Positions 33,044 through 53,360 of a stretch of DNA of 64,000 nt are shown in pieces; position 1 is the first letter of the stretch; each line of letters begins with the position of its first letter. The stretch is from Metallibacterium scheffleri. GTDB taxonomy: Bacteria; Pseudomonadota; Gammaproteobacteria; Xanthomonadales; Rhodanobacteraceae. Under the pieces are notes generated by a model. It was not told the origin of the DNA and made no database searches. It saw only the letters and a program-made list of their open reading frames with translations. A program made the translations under genes and the position numbers. The stretch is taken from positions 186,001-250,000 of the forward strand of contig NZ_LDOS01000002.1 of assembly GCF_002077135.1 (NCBI RefSeq). Reading direction: 5' to 3'.

Positions 33044-34005
33044 AGCGTGTCCTGTTGCTGCTGGCGTTGTGCGCGGCAAGCAGCCTGGCCTTGGCCGCGC
33101 CGCCGCCGCCCGATCCCGTCTACCAGAATCTGTCCGCCGAACTCGCGCAGCTTGGCCGGGATCCAGTGCTGGGCCACTATGCGCAGGGCGAACAGGCGCG
33201 CGCACGCGATGCGCTGGCGCAGTTGCTGGCAGCCGCGGGTGACCCGACCGAGCACGCCTACTGGGCCTACATTGCCGCGCGCCGGGTCGAGTTGGCCCAG
33301 ACCACCGCGCAGATCGATGACGCGCGCGCCAAGCTGGTGCAGTTGCAGCAGGAGCGCGATCGCATCCGGCTGCAAGCCAAGGAGCAGGAAGTCGCGCGCG
33401 TGCGCCAGCAACTGGCGCAGGCGCGCCTGCAAAATGCCGCCGCCGACGAGGAAACCCAGCGTCTGCAGGCGCAGGGTCAGAGCTACGCCCAGCAGGCCCA
33501 GCAGGCGCAGCAGGAAGCCACCCAGGCCAAGCAGATGGCCGCGATGCAAAGCAAGGCCGCGAGCCTGGCCAAGCGTGAGGCGGCGCTGGCCGAGCAGGCG
33601 ATCCAGGCCATGCAGGGCCGGCTCGATCACCTGACCCCGCGGCAAGGTCCGCAAGGGCTGCAAATGACCCTCGAAGGCGATGCGTTCGCGCCCGGGCAGT
33701 CCGGCCTCAGGCCGCAGGCGGCCAGCCATCTCGGTACCCTGGTGCAGTTCGCGCAGTCACACGCGCATGCGCCACTGCTGGTGATCGGCTACACCGACGA
33801 CACCGGCAGCGCCGCCGCCAACCTGGTGCTGTCGCGGCAGCGCGCTCAGGCCGTGGCGCAGACGCTGCTGGCGCAGGGCGTGCGCGCCGCGCGCATCCAT
33901 GTCGAGGGCAAGGGCGAGGCCGATCCGATCGCTTCCAACGCCACCCCCGAGGGACGCGCGCGCAACCGCCGCGTGGTGGTGATCCTGCGCGGCGTCGGCG
34001 GCTGA
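33040..34005 (+). CDS. OmpA-family peptidoglycan-binding protein with coiled coil
   Basis: A 321-residue secreted protein: signal peptide (to about residue 19), a DUF4398-like helical unit, a long Gln/Ala-rich coiled coil (residues about 95-190) and a C-terminal OmpA domain. The OmpA core is visible as VIGYTDDTGSAAANLVLSRQRAQAVAQTLL and the C-terminal ARNRRVVVILRG; the peptidoglycan-binding Asp and Arg are in these blocks. The coding end is part of an 83-bp tandem duplication. Translation is coupled to the upstream lipoprotein. Confidence 0.87.
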   Translation: MKRVLLLLALCAASSLALAAPPPPDPVYQNLSAELAQLGRDPVLGHYAQGEQARARDALAQLLAAAGDPTEHAYWAYIAARRVELAQTTAQIDDARAKLVQLQQERDRIRLQAKEQEVARVRQQLAQARLQNAAADEETQRLQAQGQSYAQQAQQAQQEATQAKQMAAMQSKAASLAKREAALAEQAIQAMQGRLDHLTPRQGPQGLQMTLEGDAFAPGQSGLRPQAASHLGTLVQFAQSHAHAPLLVIGYTDDTGSAAANLVLSRQRAQAVAQTLLAQGVRAARIHVEGKGEADPIASNATPEGRARNRRVVVILRGVGG

Positions 34006-34132
34006 GGACTCGGGACTCGAGACAAGGCGCTGCGGCTCGTGCCGTCATCCGTCGCGTGGTGGTGATCCTGCGCGGGGTCAATGGCTGAGGACTCGGGACT
34101 CGAGACAAGGCGCTGCGACTCGTGCCGTCATC
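33967..34132. repeat. 83-bp imperfect tandem repeat at the ompA-like gene's 3' end
   Basis: Two units (33967-34049 and 34050-34132) share nearly all positions. Each unit holds the last codons of the OmpA-like gene (RRVVVILRGVGG or RRVVVILRGVNG, then a stop) and the dispersed element GGACTCGGGACTCGAGACAA plus the GGCTCGTGCCGTCATC tail. The second unit is noncoding in context. The duplication adjoins the left edge of the lanthipeptide island. Confidence 0.85.
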
Positions 34133-34192
34133 CAGCGCCGCGCTCAATCCTCCTCGGCGCGCGGTTTCCGGGCGGCGACCGGTTTTTTCTGC
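34089..34192. repeat. Island-flanking direct repeat, left copy
   Basis: This 104-base stretch is repeated in the same orientation at 39465-39567 with, by hand alignment, about 12 mismatches and one gap. It consists of the dispersed GGACTCGGGACTCG element and, on the minus strand, a diverged copy of the last codons of the EF-G-like gene: QKKPVAARKPRAEED-stop here against QKKLAAAWKPHAEED-stop in the intact gene. It marks the left border of the AT-richer island. Confidence 0.8.
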
Positions 34193-34337
34193 CCTTGCTT
34201 TGCTGTGGCAATAGGCGTACAAGCGCGAATTGTCGAGAGTGTACTCAAACCGCGACTGGTCGGTGACATTAAGCTATGGCGTGGCTTTGAAGCCTCCCTT
34301 TCGACACACGACTCAACAGTTCAACTAGGAGAGCGTC

Positions 34338-34526
34338 ATGGATACTATTTCTCAAGACAAAGATCTTATAGCGAAGTGGCGAAATGATGGGAGTAGTGGC
34401 AACCCTGCCGGTCCTCTGTTTAGCAGTGGGGAGTTCGCCGAAGCTGATATAGCATCGGAGAGCGGACTCATGTTTACGCAATGCGGCACAAATTGCACAT
34501 ATTCTCTCAAAGCTTTTTGTTGCTGA
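34338..34526 (+). CDS. Class II lanthipeptide precursor peptide (LanA)
   Basis: A 62-residue peptide directly before a LanM synthetase, with an AGGAG ribosome site six bases from its ATG. The leader resembles the mersacidin type: LIAKWRN ... NPAGPLFSSGEF compared with IIRSWKD ... NPAGNPFSELKE in mersacidin (from memory). The putative core, LMFTQCGTNCTYSLKAFCC (residues 44-62), has four cysteines (49, 53, 61, 62) and four Thr/Ser (47, 51, 54, 56), a balanced set for up to four (methyl)lanthionine rings. The CTYS segment resembles the lipid II-binding CTxTxEC motif, but the conserved Glu is missing. No double-glycine cleavage site is seen; Ser42-Gly43 is the nearest candidate. The product is presumably an exported antimicrobial or signal peptide; the exporter is not in the island. 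Confidence 0.8.
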   Translation: MDTISQDKDLIAKWRNDGSSGNPAGPLFSSGEFAEADIASESGLMFTQCGTNCTYSLKAFCC

Positions 34527-35917
34527 ATCAAGTGGCGTCATCTATTGACGCAAACAACTTTGGGCCATCGCTGGGTTGCTTGGTCTCGTCCGCGCTTGAC
34601 GAGCTAGCAACCCAGCTTATGCAAGTTCGACAACTATCTCACCGCGAACGAGACGCGATCCTGCTTGCGACGCGAGAGTCTCTGCTTGAAAGTCTACATG
34701 GAAAGCTGTGCCGTGTGCTAGTTCTGGAACTGCACGCAGCTCGCGTAGAAGGGCGGCTATCAGGTCAAGATAGTTCGGCTCGCTGGGCCCACTTTCTTGC
34801 ATTGTCGTCACAGCGAAGCTTCTGGGACGCTTTAAGTGATCAATACCCATCACTACTTTCGCGCGTCGACAGCATTACGCGAAACCGGTGCGGGGCATCG
34901 CTTATCTTTGCTCAATATTTGGCTATCGATCGCGCGAAACTGGCCACGCTATGTGGTGGCGATCCTGGTGAATTGCAGGCTGTAAGTTTTGGTGCTGGTG
35001 ATACTCATCGCAGCGGCCAAGCTGTCGCACTGCTAAAATGTCAGTCTGGTCGGCTCGTCTATAAGCCTCGCTCGGCCGCTGTTGATGCGGCTCTTGCACA
35101 ATTCATCGCCGAGATCCTAGATGTGTTCAATGGCACATCAACTATCCGAGTACCAAGAGTTTGGTCGCATGACAACCATAGCTGGGCTGAATTCATCGAT
35201 CATCGTCACGCTCTCGGAAATGACGAGCTTCGAGCATTCTATCGAGGTATTGGACACTGGCTAGCAATTATGCGACTACTCGGTGGGAGCGATCTGCATG
35301 CAGAGAACCTGATCGCTCATGGCGGCAGTCCCGTTATTGTCGATTGCGAAACTTTATTTACTCCGATGTTACCTACCGTTGCAACAGGATTTGGGATGGC
35401 TATTGATTATGCATCTGAGCTTGTCCGTAGCTCCGTTCTTAGTATTGGGTTATTGCCTGGAAGGGGTATGGGACTCGGTTGGCGTGGAGTAGATTCATCA
35501 GCAGTTGGAGCTTTACCAGGTGAACAACCAAAGTTAATGCAACTTGGGCTTTTTGAAGCTGGAACTGATCGGGTTCGCGTCGATTATACTTGGGTCGATG
35601 CTAAGGTTTCTCAAAACCATCCAAGCTTGGAACCCGATCTCTCGCACTATTGGCCAGAGGTTCTGGAATCATTTGATGCTATGACAGAGACTTTGAGTGC
35701 TCTTGATGCAAAAGGCACCTTGCAACGTCTTTTGAGAATTTTTTCTGATTGTCCGATTCGTGTAGTAGCGAGGTCCACTGAAGTATACGCAGAGGTCGCG
35801 CGCATGCTGTGGCATCCTGTGTCACTACACAGAGAGGAAGTGGCTATTCATCATGCCTATGATTTATTGGAAAAAATGGCCGCCAATGTGCCCCTTGCCC
35901 CAATAATCAGGCAGTGA
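34481..35917 (+). CDS. Lanthipeptide synthetase LanM, N-terminal dehydratase part (split gene)
   Basis: A 478-residue frame matching the dehydratase domain (DUF4135) of class II synthetases, which phosphorylates and eliminates Ser/Thr of the precursor. Landmarks: VLVLELHAARVEG, GDTHRSGQAVALL with LVYKPRS (nucleotide-binding), GGSDLHAENLIAHGGSPVIVDCETLF (catalytic/active-site loop), and MLWHPVSLHREEVAIHHA near the end. It stops after PLAPIIRQ, where LanM proteins normally continue into the cyclase half; that half follows in another frame with a 4-base overlap. The first ATG (34481) overlaps the precursor gene; a GTG at 34532, five bases after the lanA stop, is an alternative start. Codon use and base composition are visibly AT-richer than the core genes. 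Confidence 0.88.
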   Translation: MRHKLHIFSQSFLLLNQVASSIDANNFGPSLGCLVSSALDELATQLMQVRQLSHRERDAILLATRESLLESLHGKLCRVLVLELHAARVEGRLSGQDSSARWAHFLALSSQRSFWDALSDQYPSLLSRVDSITRNRCGASLIFAQYLAIDRAKLATLCGGDPGELQAVSFGAGDTHRSGQAVALLKCQSGRLVYKPRSAAVDAALAQFIAEILDVFNGTSTIRVPRVWSHDNHSWAEFIDHRHALGNDELRAFYRGIGHWLAIMRLLGGSDLHAENLIAHGGSPVIVDCETLFTPMLPTVATGFGMAIDYASELVRSSVLSIGLLPGRGMGLGWRGVDSSAVGALPGEQPKLMQLGLFEAGTDRVRVDYTWVDAKVSQNHPSLEPDLSHYWPEVLESFDAMTETLSALDAKGTLQRLLRIFSDCPIRVVARSTEVYAEVARMLWHPVSLHREEVAIHHAYDLLEKMAANVPLAPIIRQ

Positions 35918-37407
35918 TCACTGCAGAAGTTGCTGATTTAATGCAAGGCGATATCCCACTTTTCACTACTGTGGCTTCTCATGGCGTGGCAACTGGTCCA
36001 CAGAACATCACTTGGCTAGCGCCCTGCGATTTGATTGACGATTCCCTCCGGCGCTGGCGCTGTGCTGACTCTAAATTAGAGCGGTATGTGATTCAAGCGG
36101 CTTTGGTGAGCGCATATATTAATGACGGGTGGACTCCGGCTGAAATCACCTTGTCGTCAAAGCGCGTGCGAACCGGAAACATTGATTCGCGCAGACGGCG
36201 CCAAGCGGCACGTATTATGATGGAATTAATAAGAACTGCCATTCGCGGCAAAGATGGTAGTGTGGCATGGATTGCAACCGTTTTTACTCCAGCAGGCTGG
36301 TCTGTGCGGCCTCTCGAGCATGACTTATATGGAGGAATTTCAGGAATTGCAGTACTTGTCAGTGCTTATCTACGTGAAACTTCAGCTGGCCGCGTCGATC
36401 CTGTATATGGGCTTGAAAACTTATTCGAAGGAATCAGAAAATCATTGGAATTTGCGGACAACAAGCGTGCAACACATCGGAGCGGAAGCATAAAGGTGCG
36501 GCCATCTCCGCCCGGGGGATACATCGGGTTAGGTTCACAGATTTGGGCTCGTTTGGTACTGTCAAGTTTTTATGCGAATGAGTGGGATAATTTGGGAAGC
36601 GCTTGCATGCTTGCGGATGCCATCCCGGATGCGGCGGATCATGCCGAAACTGACGACGTGCTAATCGGGCGAGCAGGAGCAATTCCGCCACTCCTTTTAC
36701 TTGCAGAAAAAACGAAGAATAAACGCTATTTGCGTATGGCATGTGATTTGGGTGATCGGATCTGCTCCAATGCTCAGAGAAGTGATATCGGTGCATTCTG
36801 GCCTCACCCTAGATGGCCTAATGGAATCGGCGGTTTCGCGCATGGGGTAAGTGGCATTGGTTGGGCATTGGCCAAGTTAGCTCGTGCGGCAGATAACAGC
36901 CGGTACATGGAAATGGCGCAGGCTGCATTTGCATTCGAAGATGCGCTATATGACGAAAATGAACGCAACTGGCTTGATCTGCGCCACGGTGGACTCAAAG
37001 GAGCTGCGGCTTGGTGTCACGGCGCGGTTGGTATTGGTTTAGCCCGCGTAGCATTAGATCCATATATAAATAAGTCCGTTACTCGTCAATTGCTGCGCCG
37101 CGCCTCAGATGCAGCATGGCGACTTGGTTTAGGATGGAGTCATTGCGCCTGTCACGGTGATTTAGGCACTTGGGAGCTTTTGCAAATTGCCATTGATGCC
37201 GGAGAAGCACCCATAGGGCTAACTGAGCAGAGTTTACTTGAAGTTATTTTGACAAGTATTGAAGATTATGGACCAACTTGTGGTTTTGTCCGAGATGTTT
37301 TCTCACCAAGTTTGATGCCGGGATTGGGTGGAGTTGCCTATCAGTTGCTGCGTTCTAATCGCAAATCAAATCTACCTTCGATCTTAACCTTGGGGACGGA
37401 TTTTTGA
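35914..37407 (+). CDS. Lanthipeptide synthetase LanM, C-terminal LanC-like cyclase part (split gene)
   Basis: A 497-residue frame beginning at a GTG inside the stop region of the dehydratase frame (GTGA overlap 35914-35917). Its start, VITAEVADLMQGDIPLFTT, is the sequence that in one-piece LanM enzymes follows directly on PLAPIIRQ, so nothing is missing between halves. The C-terminal 330 residues are LanC-like: YGGISGIAVLV, GFAHGVSGIGWALAKLA, AWCHGAVGIGLARVAL (zinc Cys about residue 368) and CACHGDLGTWELL (zinc Cys-His about residue 412). This part adds cysteines to dehydrated residues to form thioether rings. Either two coupled proteins, a frameshift mutation, or a recoding event could explain the split. 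Confidence 0.87.
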   Translation: MITAEVADLMQGDIPLFTTVASHGVATGPQNITWLAPCDLIDDSLRRWRCADSKLERYVIQAALVSAYINDGWTPAEITLSSKRVRTGNIDSRRRRQAARIMMELIRTAIRGKDGSVAWIATVFTPAGWSVRPLEHDLYGGISGIAVLVSAYLRETSAGRVDPVYGLENLFEGIRKSLEFADNKRATHRSGSIKVRPSPPGGYIGLGSQIWARLVLSSFYANEWDNLGSACMLADAIPDAADHAETDDVLIGRAGAIPPLLLLAEKTKNKRYLRMACDLGDRICSNAQRSDIGAFWPHPRWPNGIGGFAHGVSGIGWALAKLARAADNSRYMEMAQAAFAFEDALYDENERNWLDLRHGGLKGAAAWCHGAVGIGLARVALDPYINKSVTRQLLRRASDAAWRLGLGWSHCACHGDLGTWELLQIAIDAGEAPIGLTEQSLLEVILTSIEDYGPTCGFVRDVFSPSLMPGLGGVAYQLLRSNRKSNLPSILTLGTDF

Positions 37408-37703
37408 AGTTGTATAACGCGCAGACTTGGATATATGAAACCCGAGTTCCTCTGATGCAGCCGAATCGTCTCTTTAAATCGAAGGGTGTTTCTAAATAAA
37501 TAAGTACGTTAAATCACTTTGTAGGTATGCACTTGGACCATTGCGACGATCTGCGATGTGGTTCTATTCAATTAGAAGATGCTTTGGCGCTGTTTCACTA
37601 CCAAGCGTGCATCGTGCTCGAGTCTAAGGTTAGTTTTCAAATTTTGGTCCGCAGGCTTCATAATATTTAGATGGATGCTGACCTTTCATGGTCGGAGTTC
37701 GCA
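37408..37703. other. Intergenic region between lanM and the convergent oxygenase gene
   Basis: An AT-rich stretch of about 296 bases between convergent genes. It has no clear stem-loop terminator with a T run. The only open frame of note is the 47-codon frame at 37527-37670. Confidence 0.4.
37527..37670 (+). CDS. Small open reading frame, doubtful
   Basis: A 47-codon frame from ATG 37527 to TAG 37670, starting MHLDHCDDLRCGS and ending LVRRLHNI, with three cysteines. There is only a weak GTAGG before the ATG. It is not similar to the LanA leader, and I cannot assign a function. It could be a chance frame in AT-rich DNA. Confidence 0.2.
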   Translation: MHLDHCDDLRCGSIQLEDALALFHYQACIVLESKVSFQILVRRLHNI

Positions 37704-39215
37704 TTATATAGAGACAACGTCAAAAGCAATTGTCAGACGACTGTCCGTTGGAGTTCCCGAGAAAGGTATGGTACCGTGCCACATCCATGACGGGAACAGG
37801 ACTAAGACGCCTGGCTCGGGGCGCACAAAGTGTTCGGGAGTCAGGTGTGGTGTTGTTGGAATCCCCGGTTCACCAAAAGTGAGCCAACCTTCCTTGCCTT
37901 CCATACCTAATGCGTCAGGGACATGGATGTGGCAGGCGGACGACAGCCACCCTTTCCCATGGAAATGGTTGACGTGATACCCGTTAGGGCGCAATCGCAC
38001 AGACCAGATACCACTGAGCTTGTATGTCCCGGTATTGCGCCGTCTCAGCAGATCTTCGCCCATACCAATGGATTCCATGTAGCGGCGAATGGGTCCGTCG
38101 ATTGCTTGTGTAAAGGCGCGAATTGCTGGATCTTGGGATTGCTCTAGCCGAAGTTCGATCTGCGTCCCTGAGCGCAGTGTCTGCATTAGGGGCTGCGCCC
38201 GGAGTGCTTCATGCAATCGGCTCAGGGCCTGCGCAAGGTCGCAGAGGTAAGAGGTGAGGTTCTGCCATCCGGCTGGCGTATCGATCTTACTCGGCTTGAC
38301 GAAGTTTTGATAGTCGTACAACGCACGATAGCGCGGGTCTCCCAGCATGCGCCAGGCACTGGCACGCACGGCGATTGCGTGGCCGTCATCCGGATTGACT
38401 GCAAGCAATTTGTCGGTAACTGCAACCACGCGTTCCGCATGCCCGGAAGTCAGCAGTGCATCGGCGTAGGCGCTGATCGCATCTACACTCGCTGGTGCCG
38501 TTCGCACAGCGGTTTCTGCATGTGCCAGGGCACAGGCTGCATCAAACTTCAGTGCTGCCTGGGACGCGGCCACGTGTAACTCAACGCTTGTTGCTCTGTG
38601 ACGAATTCCCTCGGCAAGCTCGGGATAGACTTCATTAGTTTGCCCTGACGCTTCCAATAGCTTGGCCTTTAGAAGTCGCAACTCGAGATGGCCAGGCGTG
38701 GCACGTAACGCCACATCGATCCCGTTTGTCGCTGTGCGGAAGTCGCCCGTGCGCATCCAGACGAGTTCGGCCAAGTTGGTATGCGCCGCGACATGAGTAG
38801 GGTCAAAACGTATTGCCCGACGAAACTCAGCTTCGGCTGCATCGTAGCGATTTGATCCGAATAGAGCGCGGCCCAGAACAAATCGTGCCCCGGGGCTGTC
38901 GGCTCCTTTGGCAATGGCGCTTCGTGCCGCAACGACCGCCGCATCGCTTTGTCCGCTTTCGCCCAGAGCCACTGCAAGCCCGAGTTCTGCCGTGCCACTA
39001 CGGGGCGCAACAGAAATGGCCGTTCGAAAGGCAGTGATTGCGTCAGCCAGACGTCCCGCAGACAACAGAAGCTGTGCGCGCCACAGGACCAATTCGGGGG
39101 GGGGGGGATTCGATTGCATAAATGTATCAATGACTGCGATCGCATCCGCTATGCGATTCTGAGCCAGTAGCGTACGAATCGAGTTTTTCACTACCTGAGC
39201 TTCAGATGATCTCAT
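37704..39215 (-). CDS. TPR protein with C-terminal putative 2-oxoglutarate/Fe(II) oxygenase domain
   Basis: A 503-residue protein. Residues about 1-290 form a row of tetratricopeptide repeats (for example ADAITAFRTAISVAPRSGTAELGLA, GRALFGSNRYDAAEAEFRRAIRFDP, HVAAHTNLAELV). The C-terminal part has the putative 2OG-Fe(II) oxygenase fold (PF13759 type): YHVNHFHGKGWLSSACHIHVPD with candidate iron His, then GVLVLFPSWMWHGTIPFSG with the distal His and SRLTIAFDVV with the 2OG-binding Arg. Such TPR-oxygenases hydroxylate proteins or peptides, though few are characterised. Convergent to lanM inside the same island, it could tailor the lanthipeptide, which is inference. The start ATG 39213-39215 follows an AGAG site. 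A 12-C run lies in codons for the Pro stretch near residue 38. Confidence 0.78.
   Translation of the reverse strand: MRSSEAQVVKNSIRTLLAQNRIADAIAVIDTFMQSNPPPPELVLWRAQLLLSAGRLADAITAFRTAISVAPRSGTAELGLAVALGESGQSDAAVVAARSAIAKGADSPGARFVLGRALFGSNRYDAAEAEFRRAIRFDPTHVAAHTNLAELVWMRTGDFRTATNGIDVALRATPGHLELRLLKAKLLEASGQTNEVYPELAEGIRHRATSVELHVAASQAALKFDAACALAHAETAVRTAPASVDAISAYADALLTSGHAERVVAVTDKLLAVNPDDGHAIAVRASAWRMLGDPRYRALYDYQNFVKPSKIDTPAGWQNLTSYLCDLAQALSRLHEALRAQPLMQTLRSGTQIELRLEQSQDPAIRAFTQAIDGPIRRYMESIGMGEDLLRRRNTGTYKLSGIWSVRLRPNGYHVNHFHGKGWLSSACHIHVPDALGMEGKEGWLTFGEPGIPTTPHLTPEHFVRPEPGVLVLFPSWMWHGTIPFSGTPTDSRLTIAFDVVSI
39096..39107 (-). repeat. 12-base homopolymer (poly-C on the coding strand)
   Basis: Twelve consecutive G on the plus strand, coding for the Pro run SNPPPPELV near the N-terminus of the TPR-oxygenase. 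Runs of this length slip easily during replication, so the gene could switch on and off by frameshift; in this sequence the frame is on. Confidence 0.9.
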
Positions 39216-39390
39216 GATCAAGTCTCTTCGGCACACGATATTGCTGCATCATTTTTGAATGCTGCAGTGCAACGGAAAATTGCTGAACGTCAGCGTAGCC
39301 TAATAACCATGCACTTGCGGCGCAATCGGGCGCGCAGCCTTTGAGGATGCCGGTTGCAACTGCTCTTCGGAAAAGCGTTTTTTCATTCAC
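39202..39390 (-). pseudogene. Small frame with an IS3-type orfA start remnant
   Basis: Two overlapping short frames lie here. From GTG 39390, with a GGAG site, a 62-residue frame reads NEKTLFRRAVATGILKG ... LLGYADVQQFS and overlaps the oxygenase start; its end faintly recalls an AraC helix-turn-helix (LGYADVQQFSVAL ... YR). From ATG 39386 (cat at 39384-39386), the other frame reads MKKRFSEEQ before diverging; these nine residues equal the usual start of IS3-family OrfA, and GILK, found in the first frame, is its usual continuation. The simplest reading is a decayed IS3 orfA start carrying a frameshift. Neither assignment is certain. Confidence 0.4.
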
Positions 39391-39464
39391 GCCCAATCTC
39401 CTTCACCGGGTCGATTGGGCTCCAAGGCTCCGTGCTGCTCAAAACCGGGGGCCGGGGGCGTCGG

Positions 39465-39567
39465 GGACTCGGCGCTCGGGACAAGACGCTGCGGCTCGTG
39501 CCGTCATCCAGCGCCGCGCTAATCTTCCTCGGCGTGCGGTTTCCACGCCGCGGCCAGTTTTTTCTGC
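39465..39567. repeat. Island-flanking direct repeat, right copy (EF-G gene 3' end)
   Basis: Right copy of the flanking repeat described at 34089-34192. From 39519 on it is the true coding end of the EF-G-like gene (minus strand), so this copy is probably the original site and the left copy the duplicate. It contains the GGACTCGG element and the GGCTCGTGCCGTCATCCAGC string. Confidence 0.8.
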
Positions 39568-41561
39568 ACCGCTGGCGGCGTGGCCTCGTAATGCGCCAAC
39601 TCCATGCTGTAGCGGCCCTGACCAGCGGTGGCGGCTTTCAGTTCGGTGGCGAAGCCGTCGAGTTCGGCCAGTGGTGCCTGCGCGCTGATCGCGCCCTCGC
39701 CGCGGCGCGGTGAGCCGGTGCCGAGGATGCGCGCGCGCCGCGCCGCCAGCGCGCCGGTCAGATCGCCGACGTGCGCCTCCGGCACGCTCACTTCCAGATT
39801 GACGATCGGCTCCAGCAGCAGTGGTTCGGCCTTGAGCACCGCATCCAGGAACGCCTTGCGCCCGGCGCTGATGAAGGCGACTTCCTTGGAGTCCACCGGA
39901 TGGCTCTTGCCGTCGTGCACGGTCACGCGCAAATCCTCCAGCGGATAGCCCGCGATCGCGCCCAGCCCCAGGCCCTGGCGCACGCCTTTTTCCACCGCCG
40001 GAATGAACTGGCCGGGGATGGTGCCGCCCTTGACCGCATCGACGAACTCGAATCCGGCGCCACGCGGCAGCGGCTCGACGCGCAGGAAAACCTCGCCGAA
40101 CTGGCCGGCACCGCCGGTTTGCTTCTTGTGACGGAAGTGGCCTTCGGCGAGGCGGCTGACGGTTTCGCGATAGGCGATGCGCGGCGCGCGCTGGGTCACT
40201 TCCACGCCGAAGCGCGCGCGCATGCGCTCCAGCGTCACGCGCAGGTGCAGCTCGCCGAGGCCGCGGATCACGGTCTCGTTGAGTTCCTTGCGGTGCTCGA
40301 TGCGAAAGCACGGGTCTTCCTCGGCCAGCCGCGCCAGCGCCAGCGCCAGCTTCTGTTCCTGGCCCTTGCTGGCGGCCTCGATGGCCAGCGCGAACATCGG
40401 CTGCGGCAGCGCGATCGGCGCCAGCGCGATGCCATCCTCGTCGTGCGAATCGTGCAGCACGGCCTCGGGGTGGATGTCATCGATCTTGGCCACCGCGGCG
40501 ATATCGCCGGGGATGGCCTCGCTGATCTCCACCGTGTCCTTGCCGCGCAGGCGGAACAAGTGCCCGACCTTGAACGGCTTGCGCGCATCGTCGACAAACA
40601 GCTGCGCGTCGCGGTGCAGCGTGCCCTGGTGCACGCGAAACACGGCGATCTTGCCGAGGAATGCGTCGTGCTGAATCTTGAACACGTCGGCCAGCACATG
40701 CCGCGCGGGATCGGGCAACACCTCGATACGCGCGTCGTCGCTGTTGCGCCGGTACGGCGGCGGATTGGCCTCGGCCGGGTTGGGCAGCAGGCGCTGCGCC
40801 AGCTCGATGAACTCGGCCACGCCAGCGCCGCTGCGCGCGCTGGTGAAGCAGATCGGCAGCAGATGTCCTTCGCGCAGGCACTGCTCGAAAGCGTCGTGCA
40901 GATCCTGCGCGCTCAGCGCGTCCTCGCCGGCATCCAGATAGCGGCCCATCATGCGTTCGTTGATCTCGACGACCTGATCGAGGATGCGCGCGTGCGCGCC
41001 GGCGAGGCTGTCGAAGTCGGTGTCGCCGCTGGCGTGGGAAAACGCATCCAGCACCGTGGCGCGGCCGCGGGCAGGCAGGTTCACCGGCAGGCATTCGGGG
41101 CCGAATTCGGCGCGCAGCGCATCCACCAGCGCGGCGAGGTCGGCGTCCTCGGCATCGATGTGGTTGATCACCAGTACGCGCGCCAGGCCGCGTTCGCGCG
41201 CGTAGTGCAGCAGCCGGCGCGTGCCGTACTCGATGCCGGCCGCGGCGTTGACCACGATGGCCACGGTTTCCACCGCGGTCAGCGCCGCCAGCGTGGGGCC
41301 GCGAAAATCCGGATAGCCGGGCGTGTCGATCAGGTTCACGCGCAGGCCGGGGCGCTCGATCGTGGCTAGCGCGCTCTGGATGGAATGGCCGCGCGCGATT
41401 TCCTCGGCGTCGAAATCGCCGAGCGTGCTGCCGCGCTCGATCGTGCCTGCCGTCTGGATCACGCCGCCGGCCAGCAGCAGGGCTTCGAACAGGGTGGTTT
41501 TGCCGGCGCCGGGGTGTCCTGCCAGGGCGATGTTGCGGATGTCGCGGGGGGTGATGGGCAT
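39519..41561 (-). CDS. Elongation factor G-like GTPase (second EF-G type)
   Basis: A 680-residue translational GTPase with EF-G domains I-V but divergent from canonical FusA. P-loop GHPGAGKTTL (residues about 15-24), G3 DTPGYPDF, and G4 reading NHID in place of NKxD. Domain III-V marks are present: RIEHRKELNETVIRGLGELHLRV, RIAYRETVSR, KKQTGGAGQFGEV and PVDSKEVAFISAGRKAF. It matches the 'elongation factor G-like' group of bacteria with two EF-G copies; its role may be in ribosome recycling or stress, unknown here. The ATG at 41561 is preceded by GGAG; an upstream ATG at 41573 is possible. It is isolated between two AT-richer islands. Confidence 0.9.
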   Translation of the reverse strand: MPITPRDIRNIALAGHPGAGKTTLFEALLLAGGVIQTAGTIERGSTLGDFDAEEIARGHSIQSALATIERPGLRVNLIDTPGYPDFRGPTLAALTAVETVAIVVNAAAGIEYGTRRLLHYARERGLARVLVINHIDAEDADLAALVDALRAEFGPECLPVNLPARGRATVLDAFSHASGDTDFDSLAGAHARILDQVVEINERMMGRYLDAGEDALSAQDLHDAFEQCLREGHLLPICFTSARSGAGVAEFIELAQRLLPNPAEANPPPYRRNSDDARIEVLPDPARHVLADVFKIQHDAFLGKIAVFRVHQGTLHRDAQLFVDDARKPFKVGHLFRLRGKDTVEISEAIPGDIAAVAKIDDIHPEAVLHDSHDEDGIALAPIALPQPMFALAIEAASKGQEQKLALALARLAEEDPCFRIEHRKELNETVIRGLGELHLRVTLERMRARFGVEVTQRAPRIAYRETVSRLAEGHFRHKKQTGGAGQFGEVFLRVEPLPRGAGFEFVDAVKGGTIPGQFIPAVEKGVRQGLGLGAIAGYPLEDLRVTVHDGKSHPVDSKEVAFISAGRKAFLDAVLKAEPLLLEPIVNLEVSVPEAHVGDLTGALAARRARILGTGSPRRGEGAISAQAPLAELDGFATELKAATAGQGRYSMELAHYEATPPAVQKKLAAAWKPHAEED

Positions 41562-41918
41562 GACGGTCTCCATTGCGGCGCACGTCGTGGACGCGCGTCG
41601 GGTGAGCGTCTGGCCCGTCCACGGGGACAGTGCCGCCACCGGCGCAGCCGGCGCGGGCGGGTCATGGCGGGGCCGCGGGCTGCGGCCACGCGCCTAGCCT
41701 TGTGCGCGTGGCCGGCGCGGTCAAGCTGCGTTGCGCTGTGGCGGGATTATGGTGCGCGGGTGCAATGCTGGCGCGTGTACGATGGCGCGGGACGGCGAGA
41801 AAAGAGCCGGTGCGTGCGGTATGCTTGCGCGTAAGAGACAGATTGGCTGCGAGCGCCGGATATAGCCTGCAAAGTGCCGCATGTCCGCCGCCGCTATGCC
41901 TGATCCTTTGGATCTCAA
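41562..41918. other. Intergenic region upstream of the EF-G-like gene
   Basis: About 357 bases between divergent genes. The first 200 bases are GC-rich and probably hold the EF-G-like gene's promoter; base composition then falls into the AT-richer methyltransferase remnant. I see no gene or clear hairpin. Confidence 0.35.
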
Positions 41919-42334
41919 ATGAAAGAAGCTAGCATATTCACAAAAAGCGAGTACCCAATGCATACCAACATGAAAGAAGATGCACTAAGCACTCAGAGTT
42001 CCAGCTACGCGACAAACATGGCTGACACATAAATCGCCAAGGCTGTTAATGAAATCGGATTTTGGTGGCACAGCATAGATCTGAATGGATTCATAACTCC
42101 TGGCGGCAAGAGTCAACAAGTCCTCCATAATGAGTGGCGTGCAATGGAGGTGCCCGACTTGAGAGGCAAGAGTGTTCTCGATATCGGAGCTTGGGATGGC
42201 TTCTTCAGTTTCGAGGCAGAGCGTCATGGAGCCGAATCTATTGTTGCCCTGGATCATTACGTGTGGGCAACAGACAGGCCCGGATTGGCAAAGTATCGGC
42301 AAGAGTGCATGCGGGTCGCGAGAGAGCCTGACCC
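41919..42334 (+). pseudogene. CmoB-like SAM methyltransferase, 5' part, interrupted
   Basis: First half of a class I methyltransferase. An ATG at 41919 opens a 37-codon frame ending at TAA 42030-42032; the same frame then continues IAKAVNEIGFWWHSIDLNGF ... KSVLDIGAWDGFFSFEAERHGA ... ALDHYVWATDRPG up to the insertion at 42335. The WWHSIDL and VLDIGAWDGFFSFEAE blocks match the DUF1698/CmoB-type family (SAM-binding motif I). The in-frame TAA comes before conserved sequence, so a nonsense mutation exists in addition to the insertion. The last six bases, TGACCC (42329-42334), are the target duplication. Base composition is lower in GC than the core genome. Confidence 0.8.
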
Positions 42335-43421
42335 CCCAAGTTCGACATCTTCGAGCGGAGATTTTGCTCTGAAGGTGTGTCGCGACAAGGGTTTTGGCTC
42401 GTCCGAAGCGGCCATGCTGTAGTGACACGTTATTTAGCAGAGTATGCTCAGTAGCGTTATTTTGTGCAGTAGAGTGGCGACATGTTCGTCAAGCTCACCC
42501 GTTCCGGTCCGCGCAGCTACGTCAAGCTCGTGGAGGCGTACCGCGATGATCGCGGGGTCTCCCGCCAGCGCGTCGTCGCCACGCTGGGTCGCCTGGAGCA
42601 GGTCCGCACCGGCGGGGCCGATGCCCTGATTCGCGGTCTGCACCGCGTCATCGACGGCGAGGAGCCGCAGGCGCCCTCGGTGCGCTTTGCCCCGGCGCTG
42701 GCGGTGGGCGACACGTGGATGCTGCACGCGCTGTGGCACAAGCTGGGCTGGGACGAGGCGTTTCGCCGGGTGCTGCGCAACGCTCACGGCGCCTTCGATG
42801 CCGAGCGATTGCTCCGGGTGATGGTCTTCAACCGGCTGTGCGATGCCACGTCCAAGCTCGGCGTCTTGCGCTGGCTCGAAGGCACCCGGGTGCCGGGAGT
42901 CGACAGCACCTCGGTCACGCACCAGCGGCTGTTGCGCACCATGGACACGCTGGCCGAGCGCAGTGAGGCGATGCAGCGCACCCTGGCGGCGGTGCTGCGG
43001 CCGCTGGTCGATCAGGACCTGTCGATCGTGTTCTACGACATGACGACGATCGGCATGGAGGGCCAGAGTGAGGTGCCCGGCGAGATTCGCCAGTTCGGCC
43101 TGTCCAAGGACGGCGGCATCCGCCGGCAGGTCATGCTCGGCGTCGTGCAGACCGCCGAAGGCTTGCCCATTGCGCATCGCGTGTGGGCGGGCAACACGGC
43201 CGAGGCGCCGACGCTGCATGCCGTCATCGACGAGATCCTGGCCCTCTACCCGGTCAAGCGCGTCGTGCTGGTGGCCGACCGCGGCCTGCTCAGCCTGGAC
43301 AACCTGGAATGGCTGCAGACGGTGCGCATCGGCAAGACGGCGCAACCCCTGGAGTTCATCCTGGCCGTGCCGGGTCGCCGCTATGGGGAGTTCAACGAGA
43401 TCCTCGGCGCCGTGCAGGCCG

Positions 43422-45328
43422 CCCAAGTTCGACATCTTCGAGCGGAGATTTTGCTCTGAAGGTGTGTCGCGACAAGGGTTTTGGCTCGTCCGAAGCGGCC
43501 ATGCTGTAGTGACACGTTATTTAGCAGAGTATGCTCAGTAGCGTTATTTTGTGCAGTAGAGTGGCGACATGTTCGTCAAGCTCACCCGTTCCGGTCCGCG
43601 CAGCTACGTCAAGCTCGTGGAGGCGTACCGCGATGATCGCGGGGTCTCCCGCCAGCGCGTCGTCGCCACGCTGGGTCGCCTGGAGCAGGTCCGCACCGGC
43701 GGGGCCGATGCCCTGATTCGCGGTCTGCACCGCGTCATCGACGGCGAGGAGCCGCAGGCGCCCTCGGTGCGCTTTGCCCCGGCGCTGGCGGTGGGCGACA
43801 CGTGGATGCTGCACGCGCTGTGGCACAAGCTGGGCTGGGACGAGGCGTTTCGCCGGGTGCTGCGCAACGCTCACGGCGCCTTCGATGCCGAGCGATTGCT
43901 CCGGGTGATGGTCTTCAACCGGCTGTGCGATGCCACGTCCAAGCTCGGCGTCTTGCGCTGGCTCGAAGGCACCCGGGTGCCGGGAGTCGACAGCACCTCG
44001 GTCACGCACCAGCGGCTGTTGCGCACCATGGACACGCTGGCCGAGCGCAGTGAGGCGATGCAGCGCACCCTGGCGGCGGTGCTGCGGCCGCTGGTCGATC
44101 AGGACCTGTCGATCGTGTTCTACGACATGACGACGATCGGCATGGAGGGCCAGAGTGAGGTGCCCGGCGAGATTCGCCAGTTCGGCCTGTCCAAGGACGG
44201 CGGCATCCGCCGGCAGGTCATGCTCGGCGTCGTGCAGACCGCCGAAGGCTTGCCCATTGCGCATCGCGTGTGGGCGGGCAACACGGCCGAGGCGCCGACG
44301 CTGCATGCCGTCATCGACGAGATCCTGGCCCTCTACCCGGTCAAGCGCGTCGTGCTGGTGGCCGACCGCGGCCTGCTCAGCCTGGACAACCTGGAATGGC
44401 TGCAGACGGTGCGCATCGGCAAGACGGCGCAACCCCTGGAGTTCATCCTGGCCGTGCCGGGTCGCCGCTATGGGGAGTTCAACGAGATCCTCGGCGCCGT
44501 GCAGGCCGAGCACTGCGTGCAGGCCAAGGACGAGGTCATCGGCGAGACGTCCTGGCAGGGTCTGCGCCTGGTCTGGGCGCACGAACCGCAGGCGGCTGCA
44601 CAGCAGAGCGCCGCACGGCGCCAGACCATCGAGACGCTGACGCAGCAAGCCGAGCTGCGCGCCGGCAAGCTCGACGCCCAGGACGCCGGCGCCGCTTTCA
44701 AGGGTCGGCGCCTGAGCGACTCGGGCGCCAAGGCATGGCTGTTCCGCGCCGTCAGCGACGCCCATCTGGGATCGATCATCAAGGTCGACCTGCAGTCCGA
44801 CCGGTTCGCCTACACCGAGGACGAGGCCGCGCTCAAGCGCGCCGAACTCAACGACGGCAAGCTGCTGCTGGTGACCAACACCACGGACCTCGATCCCGCC
44901 GAAGTGATCGCGCGCTACAAGTCGCTGGCCGACATCGAACGTGGCTTCCGGGTGCTCAAGTCCGAGATCGAGATCGCCCCGGTGTTCCACCGCCTGCCCG
45001 ACCGCATCCGCGCCCACGCCCTGATCTGCTTCATGGCGCTGGTGCTGTACCGCGTGCTGCGCATGCAGCTCAAGTCCACTGGCAGTTACTACTCCCCCGA
45101 GCGCGCGCTCGAAATCGCCCGCCGCATCCAGCTCCACCAGGTGCGCATCGCCGGCCAGGGTGCCGCCAGCGGCCTGACCGACCTGAGCCCCGAGCAGCTT
45201 GCCCTGTTCGACCAACTTCAACTCGACATCCCGACCAGAGAACCCTTCGACATCGCCCCGTAGTGCCAATTTCGATCGCCTGAACATAGGCGGATCAATG
45301 CCTTGCACAAAAATATGTCGAACTCGGG
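43422..45328 (+). mobile_element. Inner IS1634-type insertion sequence, complete
   Basis: A complete 1907-bp copy inserted in the same orientation within the outer copy's transposase gene. Inverted repeat ends are the same as for the outer copy; the 6-bp duplication is AGGCCG (43416-43421 and 45329-45334). Every stretch I compared between the two copies was the same, which suggests very recent transposition. Confidence 0.94.
43569..45263 (+). CDS. IS1634 family transposase (DDE), complete
   Basis: A 564-residue IS4-superfamily transposase of the IS1634 group, which cuts and pastes the element. DDE catalytic residues are visible: first Asp in IVFYDMTTI, second in VVLVADRGLLS, and Glu within the Y-(2)R-(3)E type block YKSLADIERGFRVLKSEIEI. 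An N-terminal RGVSRQRVVATLGRLEQV helix probably helps bind the ends. No frameshift or stop is seen, so it is probably active. Confidence 0.94.
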   Translation: MFVKLTRSGPRSYVKLVEAYRDDRGVSRQRVVATLGRLEQVRTGGADALIRGLHRVIDGEEPQAPSVRFAPALAVGDTWMLHALWHKLGWDEAFRRVLRNAHGAFDAERLLRVMVFNRLCDATSKLGVLRWLEGTRVPGVDSTSVTHQRLLRTMDTLAERSEAMQRTLAAVLRPLVDQDLSIVFYDMTTIGMEGQSEVPGEIRQFGLSKDGGIRRQVMLGVVQTAEGLPIAHRVWAGNTAEAPTLHAVIDEILALYPVKRVVLVADRGLLSLDNLEWLQTVRIGKTAQPLEFILAVPGRRYGEFNEILGAVQAEHCVQAKDEVIGETSWQGLRLVWAHEPQAAAQQSAARRQTIETLTQQAELRAGKLDAQDAGAAFKGRRLSDSGAKAWLFRAVSDAHLGSIIKVDLQSDRFAYTEDEAALKRAELNDGKLLLVTNTTDLDPAEVIARYKSLADIERGFRVLKSEIEIAPVFHRLPDRIRAHALICFMALVLYRVLRMQLKSTGSYYSPERALEIARRIQLHQVRIAGQGAASGLTDLSPEQLALFDQLQLDIPTREPFDIAP

Positions 45329-46154
45329 AGGCCGAGCACTGCGTGCAGGCCAAGGACGAGGTCATCGGCGAGACGTCCTGGCAGGGTCTGCGCCTGGTCT
45401 GGGCGCACGAACCGCAGGCGGCTGCACAGCAGAGCGCCGCACGGCGCCAGACCATCGAGACGCTGACGCAGCAAGCCGAGCTGCGCGCCGGCAAGCTCGA
45501 CGCCCAGGACGCCGGCGCCGCTTTCAAGGGTCGGCGCCTGAGCGACTCGGGCGCCAAGGCATGGCTGTTCCGCGCCGTCAGCGACGCCCATCTGGGATCG
45601 ATCATCAAGGTCGACCTGCAGTCCGACCGGTTCGCCTACACCGAGGACGAGGCCGCGCTCAAGCGCGCCGAACTCAACGACGGCAAGCTGCTGCTGGTGA
45701 CCAACACCACGGACCTCGATCCCGCCGAAGTGATCGCGCGCTACAAGTCGCTGGCCGACATCGAACGTGGCTTCCGGGTGCTCAAGTCCGAGATCGAGAT
45801 CGCCCCGGTGTTCCACCGCCTGCCCGACCGCATCCGCGCCCACGCCCTGATCTGCTTCATGGCGCTGGTGCTGTACCGCGTGCTGCGCATGCAGCTCAAG
45901 TCCACTGGCAGTTACTACTCCCCCGAGCGCGCGCTCGAAATCGCCCGCCGCATCCAGCTCCACCAGGTGCGCATCGCCGGCCAGGGTGCCGCCAGCGGCC
46001 TGACCGACCTGAGCCCCGAGCAGCTTGCCCTGTTCGACCAACTTCAACTCGACATCCCGACCAGAGAACCCTTCGACATCGCCCCGTAGTGCCAATTTCG
46101 ATCGCCTGAACATAGGCGGATCAATGCCTTGCACAAAAATATGTCGAACTCGGG

Positions 46155-46677
46155 TGACCCAGTTGAGACGACCAAGTTTTGGAATCCCGTAGATCTTCCT
46201 GGGAAAAATGGTTTTGATCTGGCTCACCGAATCCTTGATAGCAAGGTGACGACGCGCAACCAAGACTTTTTGCTGGCAAGCAGTGCCGAAATCGGTACGT
46301 TCGACGTGGTTTTTTTCCTCGGCGTTCTTTACCATATGCAAAATCCCCTTGAGTCTCTTAAAAAGGTCGCCGAGCTGACGCGGACGCTCGCGATTATCGA
46401 GACTCACGCAGTGGAGATTCTCGGGCAAGCGCAATCGCTCGCCGAGTTCTATCCAACGTCAGAATTGAATGGCGATCCATCAAATTGGTGGGGGCCAAAT
46501 ATTGCGGCGTTGGTAGGATTGTGCAAGGCGGCTGGCTTTAGTCGAGTCGTTGTGAAAAAAGGGCCTCCGAGATTAGGGCCGATAAAATCAATGGCGAGGC
46601 ATATCGCGGCGACTCTCAGAATTCCGTGGGGAACACGCGCGCGGCACTATCGCGCGATCGTTCATGCATGGAAGTAA
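46155..46677 (+). pseudogene. CmoB-like SAM methyltransferase, 3' part
   Basis: Second half of the interrupted methyltransferase, starting with the duplicated TGACCC. It reads DPVETTKFWNPVDLPGKNGF, later GTFDVVFFLGVLYHMQNPLESL (the conserved post-SAM block of the family), ILGQAQSL and the end TRARHYRAIVHAWK. Any translation from the IS end (ATG 46129) would yield only this half without the SAM-binding motif, so it is nonfunctional. The family methylates or carboxymethylates small molecules or tRNA; the substrate of this one is unknown. Confidence 0.85.
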
Positions 46678-47003
46678 GCGGCAAGCAGCGAGCAGACGAG
46701 GGCAAGGCGCGCATGTTCGCGCCCTAAGGATGGGCGGGTTTGCGCACGGCGAGCGGCGCGCAGTCAAGGCGCGATCCTGTGCTTGATCAAAGAAAGGCGA
46801 CCCCGACAGTAGCGCCTGCTGCGCAGGTGACTTCTCCATCGCCCCATCCCGTCATCTCCGCGTAGACGGCGGGGGATCAATAGGTGCTGGACAAGCGCGC
46901 TTGACGGCGGCAGTCTCCACATGTACCGCATGTTGTGCACCGCGTCAGCCCCGGTCGGGGCCGCACGGCGCGGCGGTGTCGCCCGTAGTCGCCGGAGCCT
47001 GTC
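46678..47003. other. Intergenic region upstream of gltB
   Basis: About 326 GC-rich bases between the methyltransferase remnant and gltB, presumably with the gltBD promoter. A short hairpin (CCTGC-TGC-GCAGG, about 46819-46831) has no T run. No gene or riboswitch is recognised. Confidence 0.35.
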
Positions 47004-51728
<4,725 letters not shown>

Positions 51729-51737
51729 GGCACAGCC

Positions 51738-53192
51738 ATGGGCAAGCCCAGTGGATTTCTCGATTGCCCGCGTCAGGATGAGCCGCGCGAGGCGCCGGCT
51801 ACGCGCGTGCGCCACTGGCGCGAGTTCACCCCGGCCCTGGCCGAGCCCGCGGCGCGCACCGAAGCGGCGCGCTGCATGGACTGCGGCATTCCGTTTTGTC
51901 ACAACGGCTGCCCGGTGCACAACCTCATTCCGGATTTCAACGATCGGGTGTGCAACGGGCGCTGGCGCGAGGCGCTGGATGCGCTGCACGCCACCAACAA
52001 TTTTCCAGAGTTCACCGGACGCGTGTGTCCGGCGCCCTGCGAGGCGGCCTGCACGCTGGGCATCCACGCCGCGGCAGTAGGCATCAAGGCCATCGAGCAC
52101 GCCATCATCGACACCGGCTGGGCGCAGGGCTGGGTGCAGCCGCAGCCGGCACATGCAGCCAGCGGGCGCCGTGTGGCCGTCGTCGGCTCCGGCCCGGCCG
52201 GGCTGGCTGCCGCGCAGCAACTGGCGCGCGCCGGCCACGCGGTGAGTGTGTTCGAGCGCCAGGCGCGGCCGGGTGGCCTGTTGCGCTATGGCATCCCCGA
52301 TTTCAAGCTCGACAAGGCGCTGATCGACCGACGCCTGGCGCAACTCGAAGCCGAGGGTGTGGTGTTCCGCTGCGGCGTCGAGATCGGTGCCGCGGCCGGG
52401 CAGCTCAGCGCCGCCGAATTGCTGGACACATTCGATGCCGTGCTGCTGGCCGTCGGCGCCGAGCAGCCGCGCGATCTGCCGATACCGGGCCGCGCGCTGG
52501 ATGGCATCCACTTCGCCATGGATTTTCTGCGCCCGCAAAATCAGCGCAATGCCGGCGCGCCGGTGGTCGACGCCATCGATGTCGCCGGCCAGCGCGTGGT
52601 GGTGATCGGCGGCGGCGACACCGGCAGCGATTGCGTGGGCACCTGCAACCGCCAGGGCGCGCGCAGCGTGACCCAGTTCGAGCTGCTCGCGCAGCCGCCG
52701 GTGCAGGAAAACAAACCGCTGGTGTGGCCGTACTGGCCGATCAAGCTGCGCACTTCCAGCAGCCACGAAGAAGGCTGCGCACGCGACTGGGCGGTGGCCA
52801 CGCAGGCGTTTCTGCCGGGCACTGGCGCGGCGCACGCCGATCACGTGCGCGCGCTGCGCGTGTGCCGCGTCGCGTGGCGCGACGGGCGCATGCATGAACT
52901 GCCGGAAAGCAGCTTCGAGATCGAGGCCGACTGCGTGCTGCTGGCGCTGGGTTTCGTGCATCCGCGTGCGCCGCTGCTGCAGGCCTTCGGCGTGACCAGC
53001 GATGCGCGCGGTCACATCAAGGCCGAGGCTGGCATGCACGCCAGCAGCTATGCGACCAGTGTGCCGTGCGTGTATGCCGCTGGCGACGCGCGCCGCGGCC
53101 AGTCGCTGGTGGTGTGGGCGATCCGCGAAGGCCGCGAGGCGGCGCGCGCCATCGACGTGCAGTTGCGCGCGAGCACGCTGCAACCCTGTTGA
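51738..53192 (+). CDS. gltD: Glutamate synthase (NADPH) small subunit
   Basis: A 484-residue FAD/NADPH subunit that passes electrons to GltB through two 4Fe-4S clusters. N-terminal clusters: [22 protein letters not shown] and [15 protein letters not shown] motif [27 protein letters not shown] motif [22 protein letters not shown]. The end [23 protein letters not shown] is the second FAD block. Cotranscribed with gltB. Confidence 0.97.
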
Positions 53193-53360
53193 GGCCAGTT
53201 GCCGCGATAAGCCTTGGTTTCGCAGGCAAGCACGCGATCCGCGTGCAGGCAGCGTGCGCGCTTGCACCGCGCCGGTTCAACATCGATTCAGCGCTTTCGG
53301 TTACGTTGACATCGCGCGCGCCTCGCGCGCTTGTGTCCAACCGCCACAACGGAGAAGTCC

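Follow-up and report, generated by a model that had tools for sequence, protein, structure and literature searches.

Does the AT-richer island at positions 34203 to 39411 of this stretch of the Metallibacterium scheffleri genome (64,000 nucleotides of contig NZ_LDOS01000002.1, here called the window) encode a working lanthipeptide pathway? The island carries a precursor gene (lanA), a gene for a class II lanthipeptide synthetase (LanM) that is split over two reading frames and, on the opposite strand, a gene for a TPR protein with a 2-oxoglutarate (2OG) oxygenase domain. At 0.516, its GC content is lower than that of the 10-kb flanks (0.669 on the left and 0.663 on the right), and it lies below that of all 483 segments of the same length taken outside the island in 100-base steps, the lowest of which has 0.636. 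These values and the profile matches agree with an earlier note on the sequence, which had described an AT-richer, foreign-looking island with these genes; the 26 G+C that it had quoted for the 60-base line at 35401 to 35460 were recounted with the same result. Rather likely, the island is a class II lanthipeptide locus of the DUF6229 type, related to that of the rhodanocins, that was gained by horizontal transfer and has recently been silenced. We infer both its horizontal origin and its loss of activity from sequence comparison with relatives.

Precursor peptide and LanM synthetase

The lanA gene (34338 to 34526, plus strand) encodes a 62-amino-acid precursor peptide, recognized by a Pfam match and by alignment with relatives. 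It belongs to DUF6229 (PF19740), with 59.3 bits at a cut-off of 25, and NCBIfam returned no match for it at an E value of 1. The leader contains W-R and NPAGPLF...GEFAEADI, and the core end reads CGTNCTYSLKAFCC. In an alignment of 24 rows, one of which (L001) repeats the window's own sequence, W14, P23, A24, G25, and L27 do not vary, and the window precursor retains the core cysteines. The gene lies directly 5' of lanM, the arrangement looked for in DUF6229 precursors. The precursor pattern adjoins lanM at 38 of the 41 relative loci examined (39 distinct loci, L158 and L160 repeating L031 and L035); it was not picked up at L032, L034, and L151, the first of which has a precursor that is missed by the pattern yet visible in the alignment.

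The kind of locus is already known, since DUF6229 loci have been described in PMC9576775 and PMC11451712. According to the former, the product of a Dyella DUF6229 locus was made and characterized, the name rhodanocins was proposed, and the data point to DUF6229 proteins as precursors of lanthipeptides, with at least two ring patterns; the Dyella peptide and one Pseudomonas peptide are called there the first characterized gammaproteobacterial lanthipeptides (2022). The window locus resembles that of rhodanocin (LanII, Dyella sp. 333MFSha; PMC9576775) in its DUF6229 precursor, its class II LanM, and its host from the Rhodanobacteraceae, the family to which that paper assigns orthologues of the precursor. 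In Lysobacter, 72 class II loci gave 27 unique precursors, 21 of them DUF6229, and the precursors sort into six families (PMC11451712). The core itself was compared with six relatives that have the core CGTACTGSxTRxCC (L047, L052, L150, L157, L159, and L163). It shares with them the cysteine spacing C-x3-C-x7-CC and the G-T and T-x-S positions, and the 3' part of their LanM is 49 to 58% identical to that of the window. In contrast, one core Thr of these relatives is Lys in the window, their LanM is read in one frame, the GC content of their cyclase part is 0.65 to 0.73, and four of the six have an ABC exporter gene directly after lanM, which the window lacks.

Profile searches identified lanM in two pieces on the plus strand. 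The 5' part (34481 to 35917) covers most of the dehydratase, with positions 1 to 349 of 378 of the DUF4135 profile, and the 3' part (35914 to 37407), in a different frame, covers the dehydratase end and a LanC-like cyclase, whose match begins at residue 133 of this piece. The LanM model TIGR03897 matches the 5' piece over profile positions 7 to 427 (E value of 4.7e-85, 286 bits) and the 3' piece over positions 452 to 930 (E value of 2.7e-79, 267 bits). Each piece falls under the 304-bit whole-protein cut-off, and there is no one chain of approximately 900 to 1,000 amino acids above it; across the two pieces, both the DUF4135 dehydratase and the LanC-like cyclase are present with their catalytic residues. 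All 27 relatives compared share nine residues with the window: K195, D271, H273, N276, D288, and E290 in the 5' part, plus C368, C413, and H414 in the 3' part. By the roles known from studies of CylM, the first six are expected to act in the dehydratase and the last three to be zinc ligands. The true start of the 5' part is uncertain, as similarity begins at about residue 7 to 35 in most relatives. Both pieces match LicM2 (PDB 6st5) in order, at 97 to 477 and 505 to 975, and the 5' part matches CylM (PDB 5dzt). These two enzymes, which come from Bacillota, are each matched as a single chain, whereas the window LanM is in two.

A one-base frame change lies directly 5' of the stop codon at 35915 to 35917, where the relatives read on. 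The sequence GTGA at 35914 to 35917 makes the stop of the 5' part and a GTG start of the 3' part overlap by 4 bases, and no clear ribosome-binding site was seen by eye upstream of this GTG. DUF4135 positions 360 to 377 are weakly matched (E value of 0.32) at the start of the 3' piece, and the break thus seems to fall inside the dehydratase domain. A single open frame encodes LanM at each of the 27 relative loci (that of L030 runs off its contig), and all 52 other LanM matches of the family search sit in frames of at least 945 amino acids; the match in G583 crosses a TGA, but its LanM frame is open for 977 amino acids. The genome holds no second lanM.

In trees of 28 rows each, built from the 3' part and from the 5' part, the window falls in a supported group (100 and 99) with L030, L044, L047, L049, L052, L053, and L055, to which the 5' tree adds L031 and L035. 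The group that holds both window pieces thus consists of family relatives and an Acidobacteriales bin, and its inner branching order is without resolution. The end branch of the window is 0.56 in the 3' tree (that of L052 is 0.58) and 0.60 in the 5' tree, where it is the longest of the group (others, 0.09 to 0.52). The GC content of lanM is 0.50, against 0.60 to 0.73 for the cyclase part at the 41 relative loci.

Likely insertion at a duplicated gene junction

The island lies between a resident OmpA-like gene and a resident EF-G-like gene (39519 to 41639, minus strand), which converge. Ten sibling loci (L058 to L067) were located through the best match of each to the OmpA-like protein, and at four of them (L058, L060, L061, and L062) the two genes are adjacent and without an island, with 51, 152, 81, and 81 bp between the coding ends. 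The window flanks map onto one continuous stretch of sibling G009. Neither DUF6229 nor LanM was matched in any of 12 siblings, several of whose genomes are 72 to 91% complete.

Repeat searches and comparison with the sibling locus L058 showed that the junction is duplicated on the plus strand around the island. The 3' end of the OmpA-like gene, which ends at 34005, and the spacer make up the first unit of an 83-bp tandem repeat (33963 to 34045), whose second unit is 92% identical. A second copy of the junction, consisting of the ompA end, the spacer, and the EF-G 3' end (147 bp, 34046 to 34192), forms the left edge of the island, at about 34193, where the partial copy of the EF-G-like 3' end breaks off. 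On the right, the spacer recurs at 39465 to 39567 together with the resident EF-G-like gene's 3' end, and the right edge lies between approximately 39411 and 39465; both edges are close to those given in the earlier note.

The junction copy at 34046 to 34192 is 81% identical to the junction of G009, and it is closer to the G009 allele than to the resident one both at the ompA end (GGGGTCAA) and at the EF-G end (CTCAATCC). The island appears to have arrived together with DNA of a related species that carries the same junction, or through recombination with such DNA. Since the EF-G 3' end is duplicated, site-specific integration there is another possible route, but no integrase was recognized, and the left duplication includes the ompA end too, unlike what a simple attachment site would leave. 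Two other origins were rejected. A 123-bp repeat probe (34006 to 34128) has three matches in the genome, all at this locus, which argues for the probed part against a dispersed mobile element. The LanM 3' part is matched in 119 plasmid records, all at less than 60% identity, the best (44%) being a Nonomuraea record of 11.85 Mb, and a plasmid origin was set aside.

Exporter, oxygenase, and competing readings

In an intact locus of this kind, LanM would bind the precursor leader, phosphorylate and eliminate core Ser and Thr residues, and then close thioether rings onto the core cysteines; leader binding, dehydration, and cyclization are the established chemistry of the family. The product would then be exported, in some relatives through an ABC exporter encoded by a neighboring gene. 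Here, a one-base frame change appears to cut lanM in the dehydratase domain and the neighboring exporter of several near relatives is missing, so that the window copy most likely yields no finished peptide today.

No exporter gene was recognized in the island and no C39-ABC transporter lies beside lanM, in keeping with the absence of LanT in the earlier note. Where four of the six relatives of the same core type have their exporter gene, the window has an AT-rich spacer (37408 to 37703; GC content of 0.426). Searches by tblastn with the exporters of three relatives as queries found no exporter remnant in the spacer or the island, and their sole match in the window was an ABC gene at 15.6 to 16.2 kb (31 to 33% identity). 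In a survey resting on three exporter queries, by which other transporters could be missed, an ABC exporter match begins within 500 bp past the LanM match at 8 of the 39 distinct loci (L032, L038, L040, L041, L047, L150, L157, and L159); L030, L053, and L153 have less than 600 bp of sequence after the LanM match. The genome has four C39 matches elsewhere, three of which look like C39-ABC proteins, and an HlyD-like frame adjoins two of these three, as read by eye. The absence of an exporter is thus less telling than the earlier note had it for the family at large, but among the loci of the same core type, where most have one, it is a mild sign of reduction. No immunity gene was recognized in the island by a search that used no immunity-specific models.

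Several observations weigh against an acquired and recently silenced locus. With a single known copy of the island, a sequencing error could account for the frame change, and the locus would then be intact; no further stop occurs across approximately 970 codons of lanM; the adjacency of the OmpA-like and EF-G-like genes was unseen at six sibling loci (L059 is cut by its contig, and five have no EF-G match within 1.5 kb); and no donor of similar GC content was found among the 41 relative lanM loci. The lack of another stop, together with an end branch near those of the neighbors, implies that any decay began recently, and recent loss, or an error, would fit better than old decay. The earlier note had proposed that missing active-site residues and a lack of intact relatives would mark a decayed remnant; the residues are present and the relatives are read in one frame, yet the window lanM is frame-broken. 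An error of sequencing or assembly may have produced the frame change, lanM then being intact in a working DUF6229 locus with a transporter encoded elsewhere; this reading is unlikely but deserves some weight. The nine catalytic residues, the core cysteines, the otherwise open lanM with its unremarkable branch length, and the C39-ABC exporters elsewhere in the genome agree with it, whereas the assembly has only 5 contigs and six open frames of the window align with G009 nearly end to end, over 5,132 codons, without a break, a weak control because these frames were picked as open ones. A natural split of LanM into two chains, translationally coupled at GTGA and assembling into one enzyme, would explain the exact overlap of stop and start and the catalytic residues kept in both pieces, but it is improbable given a cut that seems to fall inside the dehydratase domain, a GTG without a clear ribosome-binding site, and no other split LanM in the 27 relative loci or the 52 family matches. 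The fuller version, in which such a two-chain enzyme works and the modified precursor is exported by a transporter encoded elsewhere, is if anything more improbable still.

The remaining gene of the island (37704 to 39236, minus strand) encodes a TPR protein whose C-terminal part matches the 2OG-FeII_Oxy_5 domain (Pfam, profile positions 2 to 101 of 101). The earlier note saw in it an extra hydroxylation step, which would make the island one functional pathway. This is very improbable, the least credible of the readings weighed here, and the oxygenase was rejected as a lanthipeptide tailoring enzyme on genomic context. It does share the AT-richer island, and a homologue in G059 (L038) lies approximately 3.5 kb from lanM. 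However, the gene is on the opposite strand and has a GC content of 0.568, unlike that of lanM; homologues at E values of 1e-30 or better occur in 44 of 148 genomes, its own included, and just five of these also have DUF6229 (G000, G043, G059, G062, and G075); its own genome has two copies; 29 further homologue loci, taken with up to 1.5 kb of either flank, gave no LanM match, the lanM of G059 lying farther from its homologue; and 40 of the 41 relative lanM loci, some of them short, have no oxygenase homologue. Because homologues are common in the group and rarely near lanM, we take the gene to be a passenger or independent of the locus, and its product probably acts outside the lanthipeptide pathway. 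A run of 12 G at 39096 to 39107 inside this gene is likely slippage-prone, and the frame is open through it.

Neighboring features and relatives of the locus

A 64-codon open frame at 39202 to 39396 on the minus strand is perhaps not a gene: it has no Pfam or NCBIfam match at an E value of 1 and no homologue in the relative loci compared by then. An RNA element at the locus was rejected, as Rfam gave no match at the gathering score across 33900 to 46500. A second stretch of 3.8 kb, at 42334 to 46155 of the window, is absent from G009, where its flanks are continuous, and four open frames in or at the edge of this stretch have no Pfam match at 1e-5. The GC content is 0.616 at 42001 to 43000 and 0.576 at 46001 to 47000. 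An open frame of approximately 2,170 codons at 46767 to 53267 (minus strand) is 76% identical to a G009 gene, and its GC content is highest at the first codon position (0.86).

The earlier note had found a class II lanthipeptide surprising in this group. Counting the window's own genome, DUF6229 was found in 21 of the 148 genomes of the relatives search, and 41 of the 233 genomes searched in the bacterial family matched the LanM 3' part at 1e-40; with gammaproteobacterial members characterized in 2022 (PMC9576775), the surprise falls away. Of 398 genomes drawn from the phylum, three matched LanM at the same threshold, the window's own and two from the order. A wider genome scan gave seven loci, in an Acidobacteriales bin (L030), two Luteibacter genomes (L031 and L035), and four actinobacteria. 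A DUF6229-type precursor adjoins lanM at L030 to L033, L035, and L036, and none was found beside lanM at L034. Outside Proteobacteria, such precursors thus adjoin LanM in the Acidobacteriales bin, whose 3.3-kb contig could be misbinned, and in actinobacteria, namely, Saccharothrix and two Microbispora (L032, L033, and L036), the last of the two Microbispora loci having two precursors in tandem; these non-proteobacterial precursors were recognized by alignment or pattern, without scoring by the Pfam model.

Two corrections follow from this analysis, as a false taxonomic surprise and a doubtful tailoring step, the oxygenase, are both removed. The island was likely inserted where siblings have an empty junction, and the locus is probably a largely ordinary copy of an already described locus type that was silenced recently. 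As a new member of the DUF6229 loci, it adds a diverged core to the gammaproteobacterial lanthipeptide family, one member of which is active against Klebsiella pneumoniae (PMC9576775), and the comparison shows that just part of this family has an ABC exporter gene next to lanM.

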